DNA of 25,042 nt from a virus. Within the stretch, counting starts at the first letter, position 1. Each line of letters begins with the position of its first letter. Of this stretch, positions 1,321 to 10,379 are shown in pieces. The notes under the pieces are model-generated. The model made no database searches. It saw only the letters and a program-made list of their open reading frames with translations, and was not told where the DNA came from. Position numbers and translations under genes: made by a program. Location: positions 1-25,042 of the IMG/VR virus record IMGVR_UViG_3300010885_038339; one strand, written 5' to 3'.

Positions 1321-2463
1321 ATGAAAGCAAATGAATTTTTAACAGAAAAGTGGAGCCAGAAGTACAAGAGCTCAATCAACTGTAGCCATCCCCGAGGTTT
1401 TAGTCAACGAGCACACTGTGCTGGCAAGAAAAAACACAATGAAAGTGTTGAGATGGAAATGGTGTGTGAAGACTGCGGCATGTGTCAAACACATGGCAAT
1501 CTCACTGAACTTCGTAAAGGTGAAAAAGACAGTAATGGCTATACCAGATGCTGGCCAGGCAAACACGCAGAAGGTACCAAGCGGGGCAAGAATGGCGGAC
1601 AGGTTCGTAACTGTGTGCCCAATGAAAGTGAGGAACTCGACGAGATTGATCGCCGAGGATTTTTAAAAGGATTAGGTGCTACAGCAGGTCTGGCTGCTAT
1701 GGGTGGTGCTAAGGGACAAACTCCTGACTATGCTAAATTAGCAAAATATACAGCAGAATGCACTGGCACATTTATGATGGCGCAGAGTTTTTACAAAAAT
1801 ACACAACCAAGAGATGATGCATTTTTACAAAAATTAGATCAGCTTGGAAATAAAGCCTTTAATGCATCTCAAGCATTTGCAAGAGCCGCCGGATTACCAA
1901 GTGATTTTAGTGCTGAAACTACAAAATCATTTGCTAAAAATATTGCACCAATGGCAAAGAACGATAGAGAAATGTTTGTGCAGTTTTTAAACTCATCTGC
2001 GGCTGGATGTAAAAATATACTTGATCGATTTAACGAAAGCGTGGAACTTGCGGAAGAGTTTGATCTGATTGAATCGATCATTGAAGATTTGGCTCAAAGT
2101 AACGGTGTAGATAGTGAAATGATCTGGGAAGATTTAGAAACCCTAGATGATGACGAGCTGTATGTGTTTGCAACCACTAGCACCATAATGGAAACCGAAG
2201 CCTGGCAAAAGGCCAACAATCGTGATCGAACTGACGGCATGAGCCGCAAAGCAGTCAATACCTATCGCAGAGAACACCCTGGCTCAAAATTGCAAACTGC
2301 TGTGACCACAAAGCCTTCAAAACTAAAGAAAGGCAGCAAGGCCAGCAAGCGTAGAAAAAGTTATTGCAGCCGCAGTCGTGGACAAATGAAAATGCACAAC
2401 ATCAGTTGTGCCAAGACTCCAGACAAGGCCATTTGCAAAGCACGCCGTCGTTGGAACTGTTAA
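1321..2463 (+). CDS. Mosaic capsid-cargo candidate: targeting leader, Cys-rich module, Tat-like module, basic C-terminal module
   Basis: 380 residues; AAAGGA at 1309-1314 supports this start. Four parts are visible. Residues 1-9 (MKANEFLTE) match the T4 internal-protein capsid-targeting pattern, with cleavage expected after LTE. Residues 15-100 are a cysteine-rich module (Cys21, 33, 49, 52, 55, 77, 98), possibly metal binding. LDE at 106-108 is followed directly by IDRRGFLKGLGATAGLAA, a twin-arginine-like signal, then a helical module with Cys147 and Cys230, rich in A+T. Residues 294-380 form a basic module ending in a pattern (KRRKSYC, then RRRWNC) that I know from several virus proteins of unknown function. 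Hand counts give 19/60 G+C at 1921-1980 against 32/60 at 2221-2280, so the modules differ in origin. Packaging and export are inference. Confidence 0.7.
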   Translation: MKANEFLTEKWSQKYKSSINCSHPRGFSQRAHCAGKKKHNESVEMEMVCEDCGMCQTHGNLTELRKGEKDSNGYTRCWPGKHAEGTKRGKNGGQVRNCVPNESEELDEIDRRGFLKGLGATAGLAAMGGAKGQTPDYAKLAKYTAECTGTFMMAQSFYKNTQPRDDAFLQKLDQLGNKAFNASQAFARAAGLPSDFSAETTKSFAKNIAPMAKNDREMFVQFLNSSAAGCKNILDRFNESVELAEEFDLIESIIEDLAQSNGVDSEMIWEDLETLDDDELYVFATTSTIMETEAWQKANNRDRTDGMSRKAVNTYRREHPGSKLQTAVTTKPSKLKKGSKASKRRKSYCSRSRGQMKMHNISCAKTPDKAICKARRRWNC

Positions 2464-3511: not shown

Positions 3512-3692
3512 ATTTGTTGATTTACGAGAAAATGCCACAATCACCTCAGGCAGCATAGCCACAGTGAGCATGCCGCTGGGTGCTGTGATTTCCAGAAATG
3601 GCGGACATTTCTTCACAGGAACTAAATACACTACCGGCGATTCTACACCGAACACACCGGCGGAATACAAAAAGTATAAACGGAAAAAATGA
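3498..3692 (+). CDS. Small protein with capsid-targeting-like leader
   Basis: 64 residues beginning MRLHEFVDLRENATITSGS. The first residues share the M-R-x-x-E-F-V pattern of the leaders at 1321, 7937 and 8641; a processing site is less clear (VDLRE). The centre is hydrophobic and small-residue rich (SIATVSMPLGAVISRNGG) and the tail is basic (YKKYKRKK). The start overlaps the preceding gene by 14 bases and the stop overlaps the next ATG (ATGA at 3689-3692). It could be a small internal capsid protein delivered with the DNA; no enzymatic motif is visible. A CTAAATA sequence lies inside the gene at 3622-3628. Confidence 0.6.
   Translation: MRLHEFVDLRENATITSGSIATVSMPLGAVISRNGGHFFTGTKYTTGDSTPNTPAEYKKYKRKK
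3622..3628 (+). promoter_or_regulatory. CTAAATA motif upstream of dps, weak late-promoter candidate
   Basis: CTAAATA sits inside the small gene at 3498-3692, about 60 bases before the Dps-like gene. A transcript starting 6-8 bases downstream would have a leader of roughly 50 bases. Only the short -10-like box is seen, so this is tentative. Confidence 0.2.
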
Positions 3693-4132
3693 TGCTGACT
3701 GATTTGTTAAAGACCTTGTTGGGAACTCAATTTGCCTACTATGTGAAGGCACACGGTTTCCATTGGAATATTGAAAGCCCTGACTTTTATCAATACCATA
3801 CATTTTTTCAAGCAATTTATGAAGATGCCTACAGCGCAGTAGACCCCATTGCAGAATACATACGTGCCTTAGATGAATACGCCCCCGGCAGTTTAGATCG
3901 TTTTTTAGAACTCAGCATAATCTCAGGGCAAAGCAAAGTGCCCCGTGCCCGACTCATGGTTGAAGAATTACTGGCCAACAGCGAACAACTGGTTGATCTG
4001 TTGAATCAATGTTTTGCTGCTGCCACTAACGAAAACAAACAAGATGTAGCAAACTTTATCGCGGAACGACTGAGCCAGACCAACAAGTTTGCCTGGCAGT
4101 TGCGCAGCAGTTTAAAGGAAGCAAGGGCATGA
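3689..4132 (+). CDS. dps: Dps/ferritin-like protein
   Basis: 147 residues, all-helical, with the Dps signature AHGFHWNIESPDFYQYH followed by a long helix ending in VDPIAEYIRALDE. Dps proteins form 12-subunit shells that oxidise iron with peroxide and protect DNA. Compared with the E. coli Dps ferroxidase residues, His25 and His37 match His51 and His63, and Asp52 and Glu56 match Asp78 and Glu82. The position of Asp67 is Gln41, so activity may be altered. The protein is shorter than E. coli Dps (167) and lacks its lysine-rich N-terminal tail. It starts at the ATGA overlap with 3498-3692; a second Met directly follows. Lying among cargo-like genes, it may protect phage DNA or act in the infected cell; it has no targeting leader. 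Confidence 0.8.
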   Translation: MMLTDLLKTLLGTQFAYYVKAHGFHWNIESPDFYQYHTFFQAIYEDAYSAVDPIAEYIRALDEYAPGSLDRFLELSIISGQSKVPRARLMVEELLANSEQLVDLLNQCFAAATNENKQDVANFIAERLSQTNKFAWQLRSSLKEARA

Positions 4133-4793: not shown

Positions 4794-7700
4794 ATGTTTA
4801 CATTGGATCTATTCAACACTCGTTACGAAAAACAGTTGCACGAAGGTGCTGTAGATCGCGAGGAACAAAACCGTTGGCAAGCACATCAGCGTGGCGAACA
4901 AGATTTTAAACGTCGTGAACAAAATGCCGGCTTGGGAGACGAAGACTTTGGCACCTACAGTATCTGGACCCAAGGTACCAAAGATGCTGAACCCAAGAAG
5001 ATTCAGACCAAACAGTGCAGTATGAATGCGGTCAGACAACATGCCGAAAACATCAAACAAAAATACCCAAGTTTGCGTGTTTGGTGGCAGGCCCACCACC
5101 TGGGCAACAGCCGATTTGAAGTTGACGAATGCATGGGCTATGGTGGCCTAGCCGGTGAAGAGCTAAATGAATTTGCTCCAGGGCAAGGTGGCAGTTCAGG
5201 CAACTATTTCCAAGCCTTGGCCAGTGCTTGGTATAATGGCGCCTTTGATAGTGGCAACCTGCAAAAAGGTATCAAGAGTAAAGAAGATGTAGAACGTTTA
5301 TTACAACGTGGCGTTGTGTGCCCAGACGGTGTCACTCGCAAGTTCAACATAGATTACAATTCTGACTTTGATGGTGTGGTAATTTTTAGTGATGATTACT
5401 ACGAACATGGTGATCATGACGAAACTGACAGTCGTACCGGCCAACCATTTGGTCCATATGACTATATGGAGTTTGGTGACGATGACCTAGACGAATCGGC
5501 CAAGTGGCGTGATCCCAAATACAAAGGTCAGTTGTATACACAAGAAAAACCCGACTATCGCGACACACGTGAGTATGATCGTGCCCGGTGGGATCCAAAA
5601 CCCAAAGGTTATCCTGGTAGAAAAGAACTTGCCGGTGGCAGCGAATACAGCGACCCAGATCCACTGACCAGAGGATTTGGGCGCTCGGGAATTAAACACA
5701 GCATACTTGATAGGGGCAAGCGTAAAGGCCTTCCATCAAGAGATCAGATCACCAGTCTAAAGGGCAGTATTCGAGATGCTCATGGCCAACACACAGAACC
5801 AAATTTACCAGAGCAGGATGAGTCTAACGGCTTGCCCACAGTGCACCGCATTGGTCTCACAGTGACTGACCCCAACCACCCCATGGTTTCGAAGCGTGGC
5901 GAAACCGTACAAAAGACTGTGCGGGTTAAAGGTGACGATCGTGAAAAAGCCATCAATTCGGCCATTGCACACCTGCGCAGAAAAGGTTACAAAGTACATG
6001 ACCATCATTATATTGGCACAGTAGACCAAGGTGTGGCGGAAGGCTTTGAACACAATTCTCAAGATCTAGCCGATGTTGCAGATTGGATGCAAACCACTCC
6101 CGATAAACTATCAGTTGAAGTTAGGCAAGAACCTATTGAGAAGTTTATTAAACAGATTCGTGAAATGTACGGAACATATGATGAATTTCCTAAAGATGAA
6201 GAACGTACTAACCGTATTTTGAAGTTGTTAAGGCGTGGCGCTAACCCTTTACCCATCTATGTAGAAGCAGGTGACCCCCATCTATTTGTCATGGAAGGCC
6301 GTCATAGAATGGTGGCGTTTTGGTTAGCAGAGATGAAAACTATTCCAGTTGCCTATGTTAGTATCAAAGGTCAGCAAGTTGTGGCGGAAGGCTTGTCAGA
6401 GATGGACAAATCACAAACTCCTCCAGGCCGTGACGGCAGCAACGATCCTGACGCCGGCAAGAAAGAATACACTGCCAAAACCATCACACCCAAAAAAGCA
6501 GCCAAGGATGCTGTAAAGATTCTAAACAAAGTTTTCAACAAGAAAAAAGGTGTGGCGGAAGGCTCCTTGAATGAATTTGCGATACCTAGTGGTAACGATG
6601 GTGATTCAGGACGTTGGTATAACGATGACGAGCTTGCTGATATCATTGGTGATGATTGGTTTGAAGACTTTGATGTCAGCAACGATGGATTTAACATTGA
6701 TGCCTACGGCGAAAAGGCCAAGAAGAATTTAGTGGGCTATGCAAATTCATGGTTTGATGACAAAGGTTATGATGTTCACGTAATGGGTGTAGAACACAAT
6801 GATGTTGATCATGATTTACAATGGTACATTGTTGGTAGTTTCCATAATCCCCGCTTTGCCAATGAAGGTGTGGCGGAAGATAACTTAAATGAATTAGATA
6901 CGTTTGCACCAGTGACCACTTATGTTAGATTGGCCAATGGCACATACGTTGCAGCCAACTGGCGTCGCAACCAAAATTTATCTACTGCAAGTAATTCAGC
7001 ATCATTTATTGACATAAAACCCTTGGCTCCTGCAGCCGCTAAACAATTGGGATTAGATCAAAGACTAAATGATCCAGAAAAAAAATATACAGGTGCTGCA
7101 ACAATTTCATCGGGTGGCCCTATTCAAGCAAGCGGCCCATTGGCTGATAGAACGATCAACGTAGTTGATATTAGAGATCCAAAGGCTGCCAAGGATTCTG
7201 GTGTTCCTGACACACTCTTTGGTAAAATTGCTCAATGGGCACAACAGCAAAGTCAAAAACAACCGGGTGTGGCAGAAGGCGTGATGTATGGCGCAGAAAA
7301 TCTCAACGTTGGAGACAATGTTGTGATCAGTGGTGATGTCAATCTCAAAGGTGCCACTGGTGTAATTGACAGTTTTGGTCGAGACAAACGTTTTGTTGTT
7401 GTGGACTTGTACAATCATGGTCGTCACAGTTTCCATTCAAGTGATGTCAGTGCCAATGATTATGATAATGATGAACACAATGACCTAGATGAAACACGCA
7501 AGGGTCAAGTGCCAATGACCCTAAAGCCCGGTGAAACTGACAATCTTGAACCCGAAGACTCTACAGGTTTCAAAAAGTTACCAGCATACCAGCAAGGTCA
7601 GGCAGCACAGCAAAAAGCCGGCAAGCAACTGATACAAAAAAGTCCGTACACTTATCAAAGTGATCAAGACTGGGCATATCGTAACGGTGCAGCCGATGCA

Positions 7701-7940
7701 CAACGGCAAGCAATGTTTGCCAACTTTGGCGGCACCAAGCCACTGACTGCCACCGAAGGTGAGCAACAGCCGGGCGCTGACTATCGTGACCCCAAAGAAG
7801 TTGACTACGATGCCATCGGACACGATGACATGGTTGCCCGAGTTAAAAAGCTGGCCGGGCTTGGCCCTATGAAAACTGTGTACGATCCTGCCCGGCGACA
7901 GTATCGTAACATGCCCACAGCACAACAGCCTAAAAAATGA
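4794..7940 (+). CDS. Giant modular protein with repeated VAE joints, candidate prohead-protease polyprotein
   Basis: 1048 residues; AAGGA at 4783-4787 supports the start. Five joints, (G/V)VAE at residues 413-416, 529-532, 586-589, 692-695 and 825-828, divide the C-terminal 60% into dissimilar blocks of 116, 57, 106, 133 and 220 residues. Further L-x-E sites precede or follow blocks: LNE 124-126, LDE 232-234, LNE 592-594, LNE 698-700, LDE 898-900. Block 417-532 is ParB-like, with EGRHR at 501-505. Block 590-695 is very acidic. Residues 829-900 look like a small beta-barrel (VGDNVVISGDV). Residues 343-413 form an alpha/beta module ending in GYKVHDHHYIGTV. No membrane segment or signal is visible. 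T4 gp21 cuts after (I/L)-x-E, so cleavage into separate proteins inside the prohead is inferred. The blocks differ in G+C by eye. Confidence 0.75.
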   Translation: MFTLDLFNTRYEKQLHEGAVDREEQNRWQAHQRGEQDFKRREQNAGLGDEDFGTYSIWTQGTKDAEPKKIQTKQCSMNAVRQHAENIKQKYPSLRVWWQAHHLGNSRFEVDECMGYGGLAGEELNEFAPGQGGSSGNYFQALASAWYNGAFDSGNLQKGIKSKEDVERLLQRGVVCPDGVTRKFNIDYNSDFDGVVIFSDDYYEHGDHDETDSRTGQPFGPYDYMEFGDDDLDESAKWRDPKYKGQLYTQEKPDYRDTREYDRARWDPKPKGYPGRKELAGGSEYSDPDPLTRGFGRSGIKHSILDRGKRKGLPSRDQITSLKGSIRDAHGQHTEPNLPEQDESNGLPTVHRIGLTVTDPNHPMVSKRGETVQKTVRVKGDDREKAINSAIAHLRRKGYKVHDHHYIGTVDQGVAEGFEHNSQDLADVADWMQTTPDKLSVEVRQEPIEKFIKQIREMYGTYDEFPKDEERTNRILKLLRRGANPLPIYVEAGDPHLFVMEGRHRMVAFWLAEMKTIPVAYVSIKGQQVVAEGLSEMDKSQTPPGRDGSNDPDAGKKEYTAKTITPKKAAKDAVKILNKVFNKKKGVAEGSLNEFAIPSGNDGDSGRWYNDDELADIIGDDWFEDFDVSNDGFNIDAYGEKAKKNLVGYANSWFDDKGYDVHVMGVEHNDVDHDLQWYIVGSFHNPRFANEGVAEDNLNELDTFAPVTTYVRLANGTYVAANWRRNQNLSTASNSASFIDIKPLAPAAAKQLGLDQRLNDPEKKYTGAATISSGGPIQASGPLADRTINVVDIRDPKAAKDSGVPDTLFGKIAQWAQQQSQKQPGVAEGVMYGAENLNVGDNVVISGDVNLKGATGVIDSFGRDKRFVVVDLYNHGRHSFHSSDVSANDYDNDEHNDLDETRKGQVPMTLKPGETDNLEPEDSTGFKKLPAYQQGQAAQQKAGKQLIQKSPYTYQSDQDWAYRNGAADAQRQAMFANFGGTKPLTATEGEQQPGADYRDPKEVDYDAIGHDDMVARVKKLAGLGPMKTVYDPARRQYRNMPTAQQPKK
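6030..7280 (+). repeat. Five dispersed in-frame copies of a 15-base joint (GGTGTGGCGGAAGGC)
   Basis: Copies lie at 6030-6044 and 6549-6563 (exact), 6378-6392 (one change in the first codon), 6867-6881 (last two bases changed) and 7266-7280 (GCA for GCG). Spacings are 348, 171, 318 and 399 bases, all multiples of three, so the frame is kept. The valine and glutamate codons are identical in all copies, and the alanine codon in four of five. Such conservation suggests either recent copying or use as short homology for module exchange. This is not a CRISPR array, since the units between are coding and of unequal length. Confidence 0.85.
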
Positions 7941-8644
7941 GAGCACAAGAGTTTTTGATTGAACGGTGGACTCGACGCACTGTCGACAATTACTTTGACA
8001 ACAAAAAACAACCCAAGCTCTCCCGCAGAGATTTTTCAATTTCACGTCCACAGGACGGATGTGTGTTGTTGAAGTTCAAAACTATTCCCGATCTTACCAA
8101 AAGTTTTTTTCGTATGGCCGAATATTACGAAGGACATCGTTACAGTGCCAAGAAACAACATGTTGGCATGGCTGAGTTCTTGGACAACTGGATGGACCGC
8201 GAAGGCAATGCAGACTATTTTAAATTCTGGGATGGTTTCAACATAACAGATTCTGCATTTCGCTCATGGTCACGTACAGTGGGACCTCTCAGTCAAGCAG
8301 AACAAACAGTGGTAGATGCCATCAACAAGGCCACAGCAGGCATGAAGAAATTCTGTGTGATAGGCATCAGCGGTGATGATCCTGCTACCTTGCAACACGA
8401 AATGTTTCATGCTAAGTATTATTTAGACACAGATTTCAAACGTCGAGTGGATCAACTGTTTGATGAATGTCGCAATGATCCTGTGATAAAAACCATGGCC
8501 AAAGTATTGAAGACCAAATTAGACTATCAAGCACATGTTGACGAAGAAGTTGCTGCCTACTTGTACGCAGGATCACAATTGAAATTGGTGTTTGGTGTTG
8601 ATGCCAAATCTTTGGTTCAGCGTTTTCAGGAATTGCACACATGA
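7937..8644 (+). CDS. HExxH metalloprotease-like protein with capsid-targeting-like leader
   Basis: 235 residues. Residues 1-9 (MRAQEFLIE) match the T4 capsid-targeting pattern, with a candidate cut after LIE. A zincin motif HEMFH lies at 154-158 within TLQHEMFHAKYYL, preceded by a beta-strand-like CVIGISGDDPA and followed some 45 residues later by HVDEEVAAYLY (Glu203, Glu204). HExxH plus a downstream Glu on a helix is the gluzincin metal-site layout, so a zinc-dependent peptidase is the best guess. The substrate is unknown. There is no signal peptide after the leader, so it would act in the host cytoplasm if injected. The ATG overlaps the TGA of the giant gene and the stop overlaps the ATG at 8641. 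Confidence 0.7.
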   Translation: MRAQEFLIERWTRRTVDNYFDNKKQPKLSRRDFSISRPQDGCVLLKFKTIPDLTKSFFRMAEYYEGHRYSAKKQHVGMAEFLDNWMDREGNADYFKFWDGFNITDSAFRSWSRTVGPLSQAEQTVVDAINKATAGMKKFCVIGISGDDPATLQHEMFHAKYYLDTDFKRRVDQLFDECRNDPVIKTMAKVLKTKLDYQAHVDEEVAAYLYAGSQLKLVFGVDAKSLVQRFQELHT

Positions 8645-9744
8645 GAGCAAGAGAATTTGTCAACGAAGATTTAACTCGCAGAGGATTCTTGCGAGGCCTA
8701 GGTGCTGCCACCGTGGCAGGTGCAGCCGGTAGTGCGCTGGCACAGAACACAGATATATCTGCTGCTTTCAAAAATATGCAACAGGATGATCCACGAGTCA
8801 GACATGCCAAAGATGTGGCTGATCTTGCCAATGCCATATATCAAAACATGGTGGCCCAACGTGGACAACCAATGGATCGTCAACAACAAAACACATGGAT
8901 GACGATAGCACACGAAAAAGCAGCGGCACGGTTCTCCCAGTACCGACCTGGAGCACAGCCCCCTGCCAAACCTGTTGCTGGATTTCCAAGCCAAGGCAGT
9001 GAATACCGCAGGTCACGTGACATTGATAATTTTGAAAGTGTTGCAGAAGCCAAAACAACTCGAGAAGAGTTCGTAACTGAAGCCGGAATGTTTGGAATTT
9101 TTTCCAAACCAGCGCCGGTCAAGAAACGACCCGAACCAGTTGATGCATTCTCTGCCAAATTGATTGCCAATCGTATGCAACAGAAACCACCGATCGCTGG
9201 CACAAAAAAACCCGAAGTTCAGCGCATAACAAGATATGCCGAATCTACCGCTGACCTGCCCGAAGGAATCCGGACGGCCTTGGGAGCGGTTGCACTGGCT
9301 GGAACCGTGGCCATGAGTCCGGCCCAGGCCCAGACATCCGGCAATGACCTATTGCCCGACATCGTGGCACATGTGGTCATGCAAATCAACGGTAAAACAG
9401 TTGAAAAAGAAATCAATCTAGGAACACAATATCAATCGCCAGGCGAAGCTCGAGATGCAGTAGCCAAATGGTTAAAAGAAAAAGGCGTCACCAACTACCA
9501 GATAAACTTGGAACGTGCTACACCAGTGAACGAAACTGCCAACGAAAATCAAGATGCCGTAGAACGTGCTATCTTAAATCGTATCATGGTTGCACACACA
9601 GACTTGTTGATGCAGTTTGGTCCAGACAAGGTCATGCAGGCCGCGGAGGAAGTGGCTTACAATGTGGGTGATGTGGATGAAATTGGTACCAGCGATGTCA
9701 GTGCCTATGTCAATCAAGTTCGACAAATCCTTGGTGCCAAATGA
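8641..9744 (+). CDS. Mosaic cargo candidate with leader, Tat-like signal and internal Sec-like signal
   Basis: 367 residues. MRAREFVNE (1-9) is a targeting-like leader; directly behind it, DLTRRGFLRGLGAATVAG and then ALAQ (33-35 region) form an almost textbook twin-arginine signal with an AxA cleavage site. A helical segment follows (36-130). VAE at 134-136 and VTE at 145-147 (within EEFVTE) are further candidate processing sites. LPE at 206-208 is followed at once by GIRTALGAVALAGTVAMS and AQAQ, a Sec-like signal sequence, then an alpha/beta module (QTSGNDLLPD onward). The last 60 residues (IMVAHTDLLMQFGPDKVM, then DVDEIGTSDVSAYV) form a helical module I recall at C-termini of related phage proteins. 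Start and stop both sit in ATGA overlaps. Packaging, cleavage and export are inferred from motif order only. Confidence 0.7.
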   Translation: MRAREFVNEDLTRRGFLRGLGAATVAGAAGSALAQNTDISAAFKNMQQDDPRVRHAKDVADLANAIYQNMVAQRGQPMDRQQQNTWMTIAHEKAAARFSQYRPGAQPPAKPVAGFPSQGSEYRRSRDIDNFESVAEAKTTREEFVTEAGMFGIFSKPAPVKKRPEPVDAFSAKLIANRMQQKPPIAGTKKPEVQRITRYAESTADLPEGIRTALGAVALAGTVAMSPAQAQTSGNDLLPDIVAHVVMQINGKTVEKEINLGTQYQSPGEARDAVAKWLKEKGVTNYQINLERATPVNETANENQDAVERAILNRIMVAHTDLLMQFGPDKVMQAAEEVAYNVGDVDEIGTSDVSAYVNQVRQILGAK

Positions 9745-10379
9745 TACTGGCTGATTTTCAAATTAGTAACCATGACAAACTAGACAGTATACTTGTAGGT
9801 CTATGTGAGTTGGTCATCGAAGGTCAAAAACGAGATCCTGCAGAATACGGCATGGTGGCGGCCGCTGTGCTTGACCCTGATAATAATTGTGTAGCTGCAT
9901 TGAACTATCAAACAGATCAAGGTGATGTTCACGGTGAACGTGCCGCAATAGATGCTTATCACCAACGCTTTGGCGAAATACCCAAGGGCAGTATTATTTT
10001 AACAACCTGTAGTCCGTGCACCGAACCTATGCCCGACCGTTACGGCGACAGCTGCAAAGACCTAATTAGTAGCACACCGGTCCACAAAGTCTATGCCGGT
10101 TATAGGGATCCTAGTCAGCAGACCACTGCCGGTAACAAGACTTATCATTTACAAATAACAAAAAATAAAAAAATACAAGAACTATGCAAATCTTTTGCCG
10201 ACACTTGGTTAAAGGACGAGTTGAATGAACTCAATTTCCTAGGAAGCCCTTGCACCAAAGACTGTTCGGGTCATAGAGCCGGCTATGCGTGGTCGCAGAG
10301 AAAAGGTGGGCGTGTGGCTCAAAGTCCATGGAGCCCCAGTTTCAACAAAGGCAGTCAACTACATGTGGATGGCAAATGA
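9741..10379 (+). CDS. Cytidine-deaminase-fold protein with a C-terminal accessory module
   Basis: 212 residues. The deaminase metal site is visible: HGE at 64-66 and TTCSPCTEPMPDRYGDSC, giving Cys93 and Cys105 as the other ligands and Glu66 as the proton shuttle. The long PC-x(11)-C spacing resembles RibD or nucleotide-deaminase forms more than APOBEC or CDA (PCxxC). Known phage relatives convert dCMP to dUMP, but the substrate here is open: free nucleotides, pteridine-type compounds or nucleic acid. LNE at 161-163 is followed by a separate module, LNFLGSPCTKDCSGHRAG, ending near residue 210; I know this Cys/His module from other phage proteins without a function. The LNE again fits an (I/L)-x-E joint. 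It has no targeting leader. The ATG overlaps the upstream TGA. Confidence 0.7.
   Translation: MILADFQISNHDKLDSILVGLCELVIEGQKRDPAEYGMVAAAVLDPDNNCVAALNYQTDQGDVHGERAAIDAYHQRFGEIPKGSIILTTCSPCTEPMPDRYGDSCKDLISSTPVHKVYAGYRDPSQQTTAGNKTYHLQITKNKKIQELCKSFADTWLKDELNELNFLGSPCTKDCSGHRAGYAWSQRKGGRVAQSPWSPSFNKGSQLHVDGK

Follow-up and report, generated by a model that had tools for sequence, protein, structure and literature searches.

The open reading frame at 8641–9744 (P0001) raises the question whether an export signal can lie hidden behind the cleavage site of a phage-head protease, to become N-terminal when the protein is cut. The frame is part of a virus record of 25,042 bases (IMGVR_UViG_3300010885_038339), which is a fragment of a larger phage genome; the whole stretch was analysed and is referred to as the window. 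In P0001, VNE (residues 7–9) is followed by DLTRRGFLRGLGAA...ALA/Q and LPE (206–208) by GIRTALGAVALAG...AQA/Q; the full contexts are MRAREFVNE/DLTRRGFLRGLGAATVAGAAGSALA/Q and ...STADLPE/GIRTALGAVALAGTVAMSPAQA/Q, in which a slash marks a candidate cut. An earlier note had described these as a Tat-like and a Sec-like signal directly behind two prohead-protease sites, and its residues and their order are exact. The first segment (residues 11–33) scored 19.8 bits against the NCBIfam Tat signal TIGR01409 (cut-off 16.7), and the score of P0001 against Pfam PF10518 (15.4 bits) was under the cut-off of 22.7. The Sec-like segment starts with GIR, has an A/G-rich h-region that is less hydrophobic than that of the phages' own Sec signals, and ends in AQA/Q; the LPE site before it carries proline at P2. 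The total number of [LIVM]xE motifs in P0001 (7, compared to 4.9 in shuffles, p 0.19) is not above that of the shuffles, and support thus comes from the position and the recurrence of the sites, not from their count.

Table 1. Coordinates of the features in the window, with the evidence on which each assignment is based.
Feature	Position	Strand	Evidence
380-aa ORF: targeting N-terminus MKANEFLTE, inner Tat-like cassette, DUF6321 C-terminus	1321..2463	+	
Residues 109–132 of this ORF, IDRRGFLKGLGATAGLAAMGGAKG, Tat-like signal adjoining LDE (108)	1645..1716	+	TIGR01409; L008
1048-aa multi-site protein, no signal recognised	4794..7940	+	[VM]AE count
235-aa ORF: targeting N-terminus MRAQEFLIE, HEMFH motif, no signal	7937..8644	+	
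P0001, 367 aa, polyprotein proposed to be packaged in the head, two predicted export signals	8641..9744	+	ORF translation
P0001 residues 1–9, MRAREFVNE, T4-style capsid-targeting N-terminus with terminal V-x-E site	8641..8667	+	84 similar stretches; PMC9026906
P0001 residues 10–34, DLTRRGFLRGLGAATVAGAAGSALA, Tat-like signal, predicted signal-peptidase site ALA/Q	8668..8742	+	TIGR01409; synonymous changes relative to L373
P0001 residues 35–136, first cargo, ending at site SVAE	8743..9048	+	homologues L373, L238
P0001 residues 137–147, AKTTREEFVTE, flanked by two V-x-E sites	9049..9081	+	
P0001 residues 148–208, ending at site LPE	9082..9264	+	
P0001 residues 209–230, GIRTALGAVALAGTVAMSPAQA, Sec-like signal, predicted site AQA/Q	9265..9330	+	design shared with LDE/LEE/VEE, then GWK, signals of relatives
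P0001 residues 231–298, second cargo, small beta-beta-alpha-beta domain, ending at site VNE	9331..9534	+	four homologues; AlphaFold2
P0001 residues 299–367 and stop, conserved C-terminal module	9535..9744	+	present in L002–L004

Both signals had been said to be buried in the uncut protein. This holds for the second, which is an inner signal; the first starts at residue 10, no further in than the n-regions of natural Tat signals can reach, and would not be buried. Being nine residues from the start, the first signal may act without cutting, and the case for unmasking depends on the inner ones.

The kind of phage was assessed from related sequences. The DNA polymerase of the window is nearest to those of jumbo phages, e.g. 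Sinorhizobium phage Phosso and Agrobacterium phage Atu_ph07 (51% at most). A T4-type prohead protease (PF03420, Peptidase_S77) was found in 8 of 15 long IMG/VR relative contigs, and the same eight encode gp23 (PF07068); the relatives of the window are T4-like phages with a predicted gp21-type protease and gp23. The 25-kb window itself is without genes for gp21 and gp23, and for its phage we infer both from the relatives. The relative genomes also encode small families of proteins that begin with MRAxEF[LIV]xE; 84 distinct M[KR][ASF]xEF[LIVM]xE stretches were counted among the fetched loci (L numbers), and three frames of the window, P0001 among them, start in this T4-style manner (Table 1). 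T4 employs a capsid-targeting sequence and a cleavage rule of L/I-x-E (PMC9026906); the MRAxEF[LIV]xE N-termini resemble the former in sequence, and would fit the latter. In cultured phages, a tblastn search with P0001 gave no match. Phosso has solely an ordinary N-terminal Tat-like signal, DSL-LC02 and BUCT-ZZ01 have no Tat-like signal above the limit, and the GH19 protein inspected in Achromobacter phage Motura does not contain such a cassette.

To determine how often a cut site precedes a Tat-like signal, IMG/VR was scanned with an RRGFLxG codon pattern that does not contain any glutamate; mixed-source signal lists, one of which was pre-filtered for the presence of a site, were kept out of the counts. 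A [LIVM]xE motif was present within four residues upstream in 11 of 15 distinct internal signals. The motif is short, and 1.17 of 15 are expected at this distance if positions are drawn at random within these proteins; 11 was reached in none of 200,000 simulations. Within eight residues the numbers were 12 observed and 1.99 expected. The exceptions to the four-residue rule are L253 (site at 7), L284 (TNE), L297 (internal RRGFL, no site) and L233, which is probably a non-gene frame. With the same pattern, 1 of 13 N-terminal Tat-like signals in GTDB genomes had [LIVM]xE within eight residues. The inner signals start at residue 209 in P0001, at residue 109 in ORF 1321–2463 and at positions up to about 700 in relatives. 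The placement of xE before inner Tat-like signals is thus far above chance.

The Tat-like signal of ORF 1321–2463, absent from the earlier note, is a second case in the window: ELDE/IDRRGFLKGLGATAGLAAMGG (LDE/IDRRGFLKGLG), with 22.1 bits against TIGR01409 (cut-off 16.7) and 22.1 bits against PF10518 (under the cut-off of 22.7). At the equivalent position L008 has LDE/ISRRDFLKG. Other relatives (L005, L006, L007 and L011) carry different cassettes at this place and keep the ends of the protein; the variable cassettes are bounded by sites of the ESVAE/ESINE type and of the ELAEEFDLIE type, and the Tat-like cassette is one of the options for this middle slot (window, L008 and L064). These are multi-module proteins in which cassettes are swapped between xE boundaries, the cassettes ending at candidate [LIVM]xE cut sites. 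ORF 4794–7940 contains 17 [LIVM]xE sites, five of which are [VM]AE (0.4 in shuffles), and resembles a head polyprotein made of many pieces, in which no signal was recognised. The HEMFH motif of ORF 7937–8644 may be that of a zinc metalloprotease, with no Pfam match for this protein, and ORF 3689–4132 is a ferritin-like (Dps-type) protein (PF00210) carried by the phage genome.

The modular arrangement is also apparent from the homologues of the individual pieces of P0001. For the second cargo, four homologues were found among the fetched loci, and all five members of the family are preceded by xE and a signal: LPE/GIR in the window, VEE/GWK in L380, IEE/GWK in L349, LDE/IDRR in L303 and VAE/DISRR in L273. 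Two of the five members thus have Tat-like and three have Sec-like signals, i.e. the predicted signal type swaps on one cargo family. A cassette in L373 (signal LEE/IDRR) shares 63% identity with the first cassette of P0001 and is preceded by GVAEGSLEE rather than by an N-terminal targeting sequence; the homology to P0001 starts at the cut site, and 11 of the 14 differences over the 23 signal codons are synonymous. In L238, the first cargo directly follows VTE without a signal; the signal is therefore an optional module and export is not obligatory for this cargo. Residues 148–208 have no homologue among the fetched loci. The C-terminal module is 57–87% identical in L002–L004 and lies behind an xE site there too; the deaminase-like ORF 9741–10379 (PF00383) directly downstream of P0001 retains its place in the gene order of the same three loci. 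A PDB sequence search with the two cargos yielded nothing credible. The predicted fold of the first was of low confidence (54.8); AlphaFold2 gave a beta-beta-alpha-beta fold for the second (mean pLDDT 77.5), with no PDB match below E 0.1.

The Sec-like signals of the relatives follow a recurrent design, [LIVM]xE/GWKxxLGxAALAGxMALG...AxA. P3 was L, I, V or M in 18 of 18 signal-like EGWK cases and in 11 of 44 other EGWK matches (Fisher p 2e-8); since the search pattern itself contained the glutamate, P3 is the only independent test for this type. The signals behind the sites had median hydrophobicities of 1.6 (Tat-like) and 1.77 (Sec-like), lower than the 2.6 of N-terminal signals in the same phages (p 5e-6 for the comparison with the Sec-like ones). 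Such low hydrophobicity would fit post-translational rather than SRP-dependent export (PMC7317946). Two other kinds of segment occur behind cut sites. The 1161-aa frame of L227 (MAE/GWKGEFVGG...) and the 205-aa frame of L037 have long, glycine-rich, membrane-like segments, and these pieces may insert into the membrane instead of crossing it; a possible lipoprotein-like signal is found in L192 7037–10300 (G007), VEE/SVKSKLAAAGAAVCIAGTPGC.

The cargo behind the predicted export signals includes putative cell-wall-degrading enzymes. A GH19 lysozyme/chitinase domain lies behind a Tat-like signal in L246 and L284, and behind a Sec-like one in L006, L008, L010, L039, L060 and L450; in L373 the signal (LEE/DWK) is followed by LysM and then GH19, and in L012 MRAKEFITE/ITRR leads into an M48 protease. 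All seven carriers that were scanned (L010, L039, L060, L246, L284, L373 and L450) scored above the cut-off of PF00182 (GH19). The HES...E pair is intact in L010, L060, L246 and L373, and the second Glu is absent from L284, a 414-aa frame in which the Tat-like signal and the GH19 domain are fused behind a HAD-like domain. In L010, L039, L060 and L450 the carrier protein begins with a targeting sequence, and L010 has a GNAT domain upstream and GH19 downstream of the signal. A second, shorter GH19 frame is present elsewhere in the G001 and G005 contigs; these shorter frames are independent genes of the genomes that also encode the cassette forms, and the G001 copy as well as several copies of other relatives have no signal.

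From the order of site and signal, its recurrence, the swapping of signals, the cell-wall cargo and the protease and capsid genes of the relatives, we infer cutting at these sites, packaging, injection and export in a new host, and we assign a probability of roughly 0.6 to the following scheme. A short N-terminal sequence would direct the polyprotein into the prohead, where the gp21-type protease would cleave it at [LIVM]xE into separate pieces. In cassettes with a Tat-like or moderately hydrophobic Sec-like signal right behind the cut, cleavage would turn that signal into the N-terminus. The pieces would enter the host together with the DNA. For injected proteins export could only take place after synthesis, via the Tat or SecA route of the host; the exported pieces would be wall-acting or other periplasmic proteins, delivered early in infection, and pieces without a signal would remain cytoplasmic. 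This is in essence the two-step order, cutting in the prohead and then export, that had been suggested for P0001 alone. The order recurs in unrelated contexts with both signal types, in relatives that are T4-like and have the protease, and with wall-acting cargo; for P0001 itself the scheme is weakened by a first signal that may work uncut and a first cargo that lacks a signal in L238. Homologues with the hydrophobic segment but without the xE site and the RR pair, named beforehand as the counter-case, were not seen. For the wider proposal, a general delivery route in which the head protease makes cytoplasmic and export-tagged sets of effectors and injected enzymes reach the periplasm of the new host via Tat or Sec before phage gene expression, the chances seem to us about even.

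Cutting and export could instead take place in the producing cell, through leakage of cleavage products from proheads or trimming of precursors that were not packaged, and the exported lysozymes would then aid late lysis. Fragments of T4 core proteins do exit the maturing prohead (PMC9026906) and GH19 cargo would suit lysis, but L010, L039, L060, L450, L012 and the window ORFs have a T4-style head-targeting N-terminus, shorter GH19 endolysin genes are already present elsewhere in the genomes, and much of the cargo is non-lytic; we consider this explanation unlikely. Export without any prohead cutting, the xE being a mere linker, appears quite improbable. N-terminal signals (P0001, L012 and G042) would then act directly and inner ones via internal starts or by being accepted as internal Tat signals, which can function uncut in some proteins (Rieske example, PMC7317946). 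ATG or TTG is indeed found just before RR in some cassettes (L227, the 251-aa frame of L324, L253 and L328), and in these an internal start may be used. Elsewhere the codons upstream of the signal are free of ATG, GTG and TTG over long distances (100 codons in L246, 57 in the 435-aa frame of L324, 52 in L340 and L350, 41 in L010), and internal start codons were rejected as a general source of inner signals since several signals have no nearby start. The far-above-chance placement of xE also speaks against a linker.

The hydrophobic segments could also be membrane-active parts that function in DNA ejection or, while the head is being assembled, in attaching the core to the membrane, rather than export signals. 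Glycine-rich segments like those of L227 and L037 would suit such a role; the n-region, short h-region and AxA ending of the segments, the retention of the RR motif through synonymous change and the wall-acting cargo that follows the signals do not, and we regard this explanation as very improbable.

If the proposed scheme of prohead cutting, injection and export is correct, phage-head proteins would not be confined to the host cytoplasm and virion maturation would create export signals. An infecting phage could put lysozymes, proteases or unknown small domains into the host periplasm at once, which would point to roles in the periplasm early in infection, for example in superinfection exclusion or in remodelling of the wall. 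The scheme would also account for the long, cassette-built head proteins of these environmental T4-like phages, and would provide a simple sequence rule for sorting packaged cargo by destination.

Targeting to the head, cutting in the prohead and Tat or Sec signals have each been described before; their combination appears to be new. The earlier note knew of no example of this order, and no description of an export signal behind a prohead-protease site was found in the literature searched. T7 gp16 is an internal virion transglycosylase, a wall-degrading enzyme that travels in the head and leaves it on infection. It acts during ejection and is not known to use Sec or Tat signals; the putative wall-degrading head enzymes described here would resemble it in location and differ in having such predicted signals. 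Ejection proteins of phiKZ and SPN3US, too, are head proteins that mature through prohead-protease cleavage (PMC5694885); that paper makes no mention of export signals ('signal peptide' has 0 occurrences), unlike the situation proposed here. A further parallel is with IPI–IPIII and Alt of T4, with which the proteins studied here would share the N-terminal targeting sequence with terminal [LIV]xE, cleavage by Peptidase_S77 and the expected injection with the DNA. In the T4 proteins one short N-terminal propeptide is removed and no export signal has been described, whereas the proteins studied here have several candidate sites and a signal behind a site. The Tat-like signals themselves resemble the TIGR01409/PF10518 type, with the D[ILM][STDN]RRGFL motif, a glycine-rich and moderately hydrophobic h-region and the AxA ending; unlike usual Tat signals, which are found at the translation start, many of them lie 100–700 residues inside the reading frame, behind a predicted protease site.
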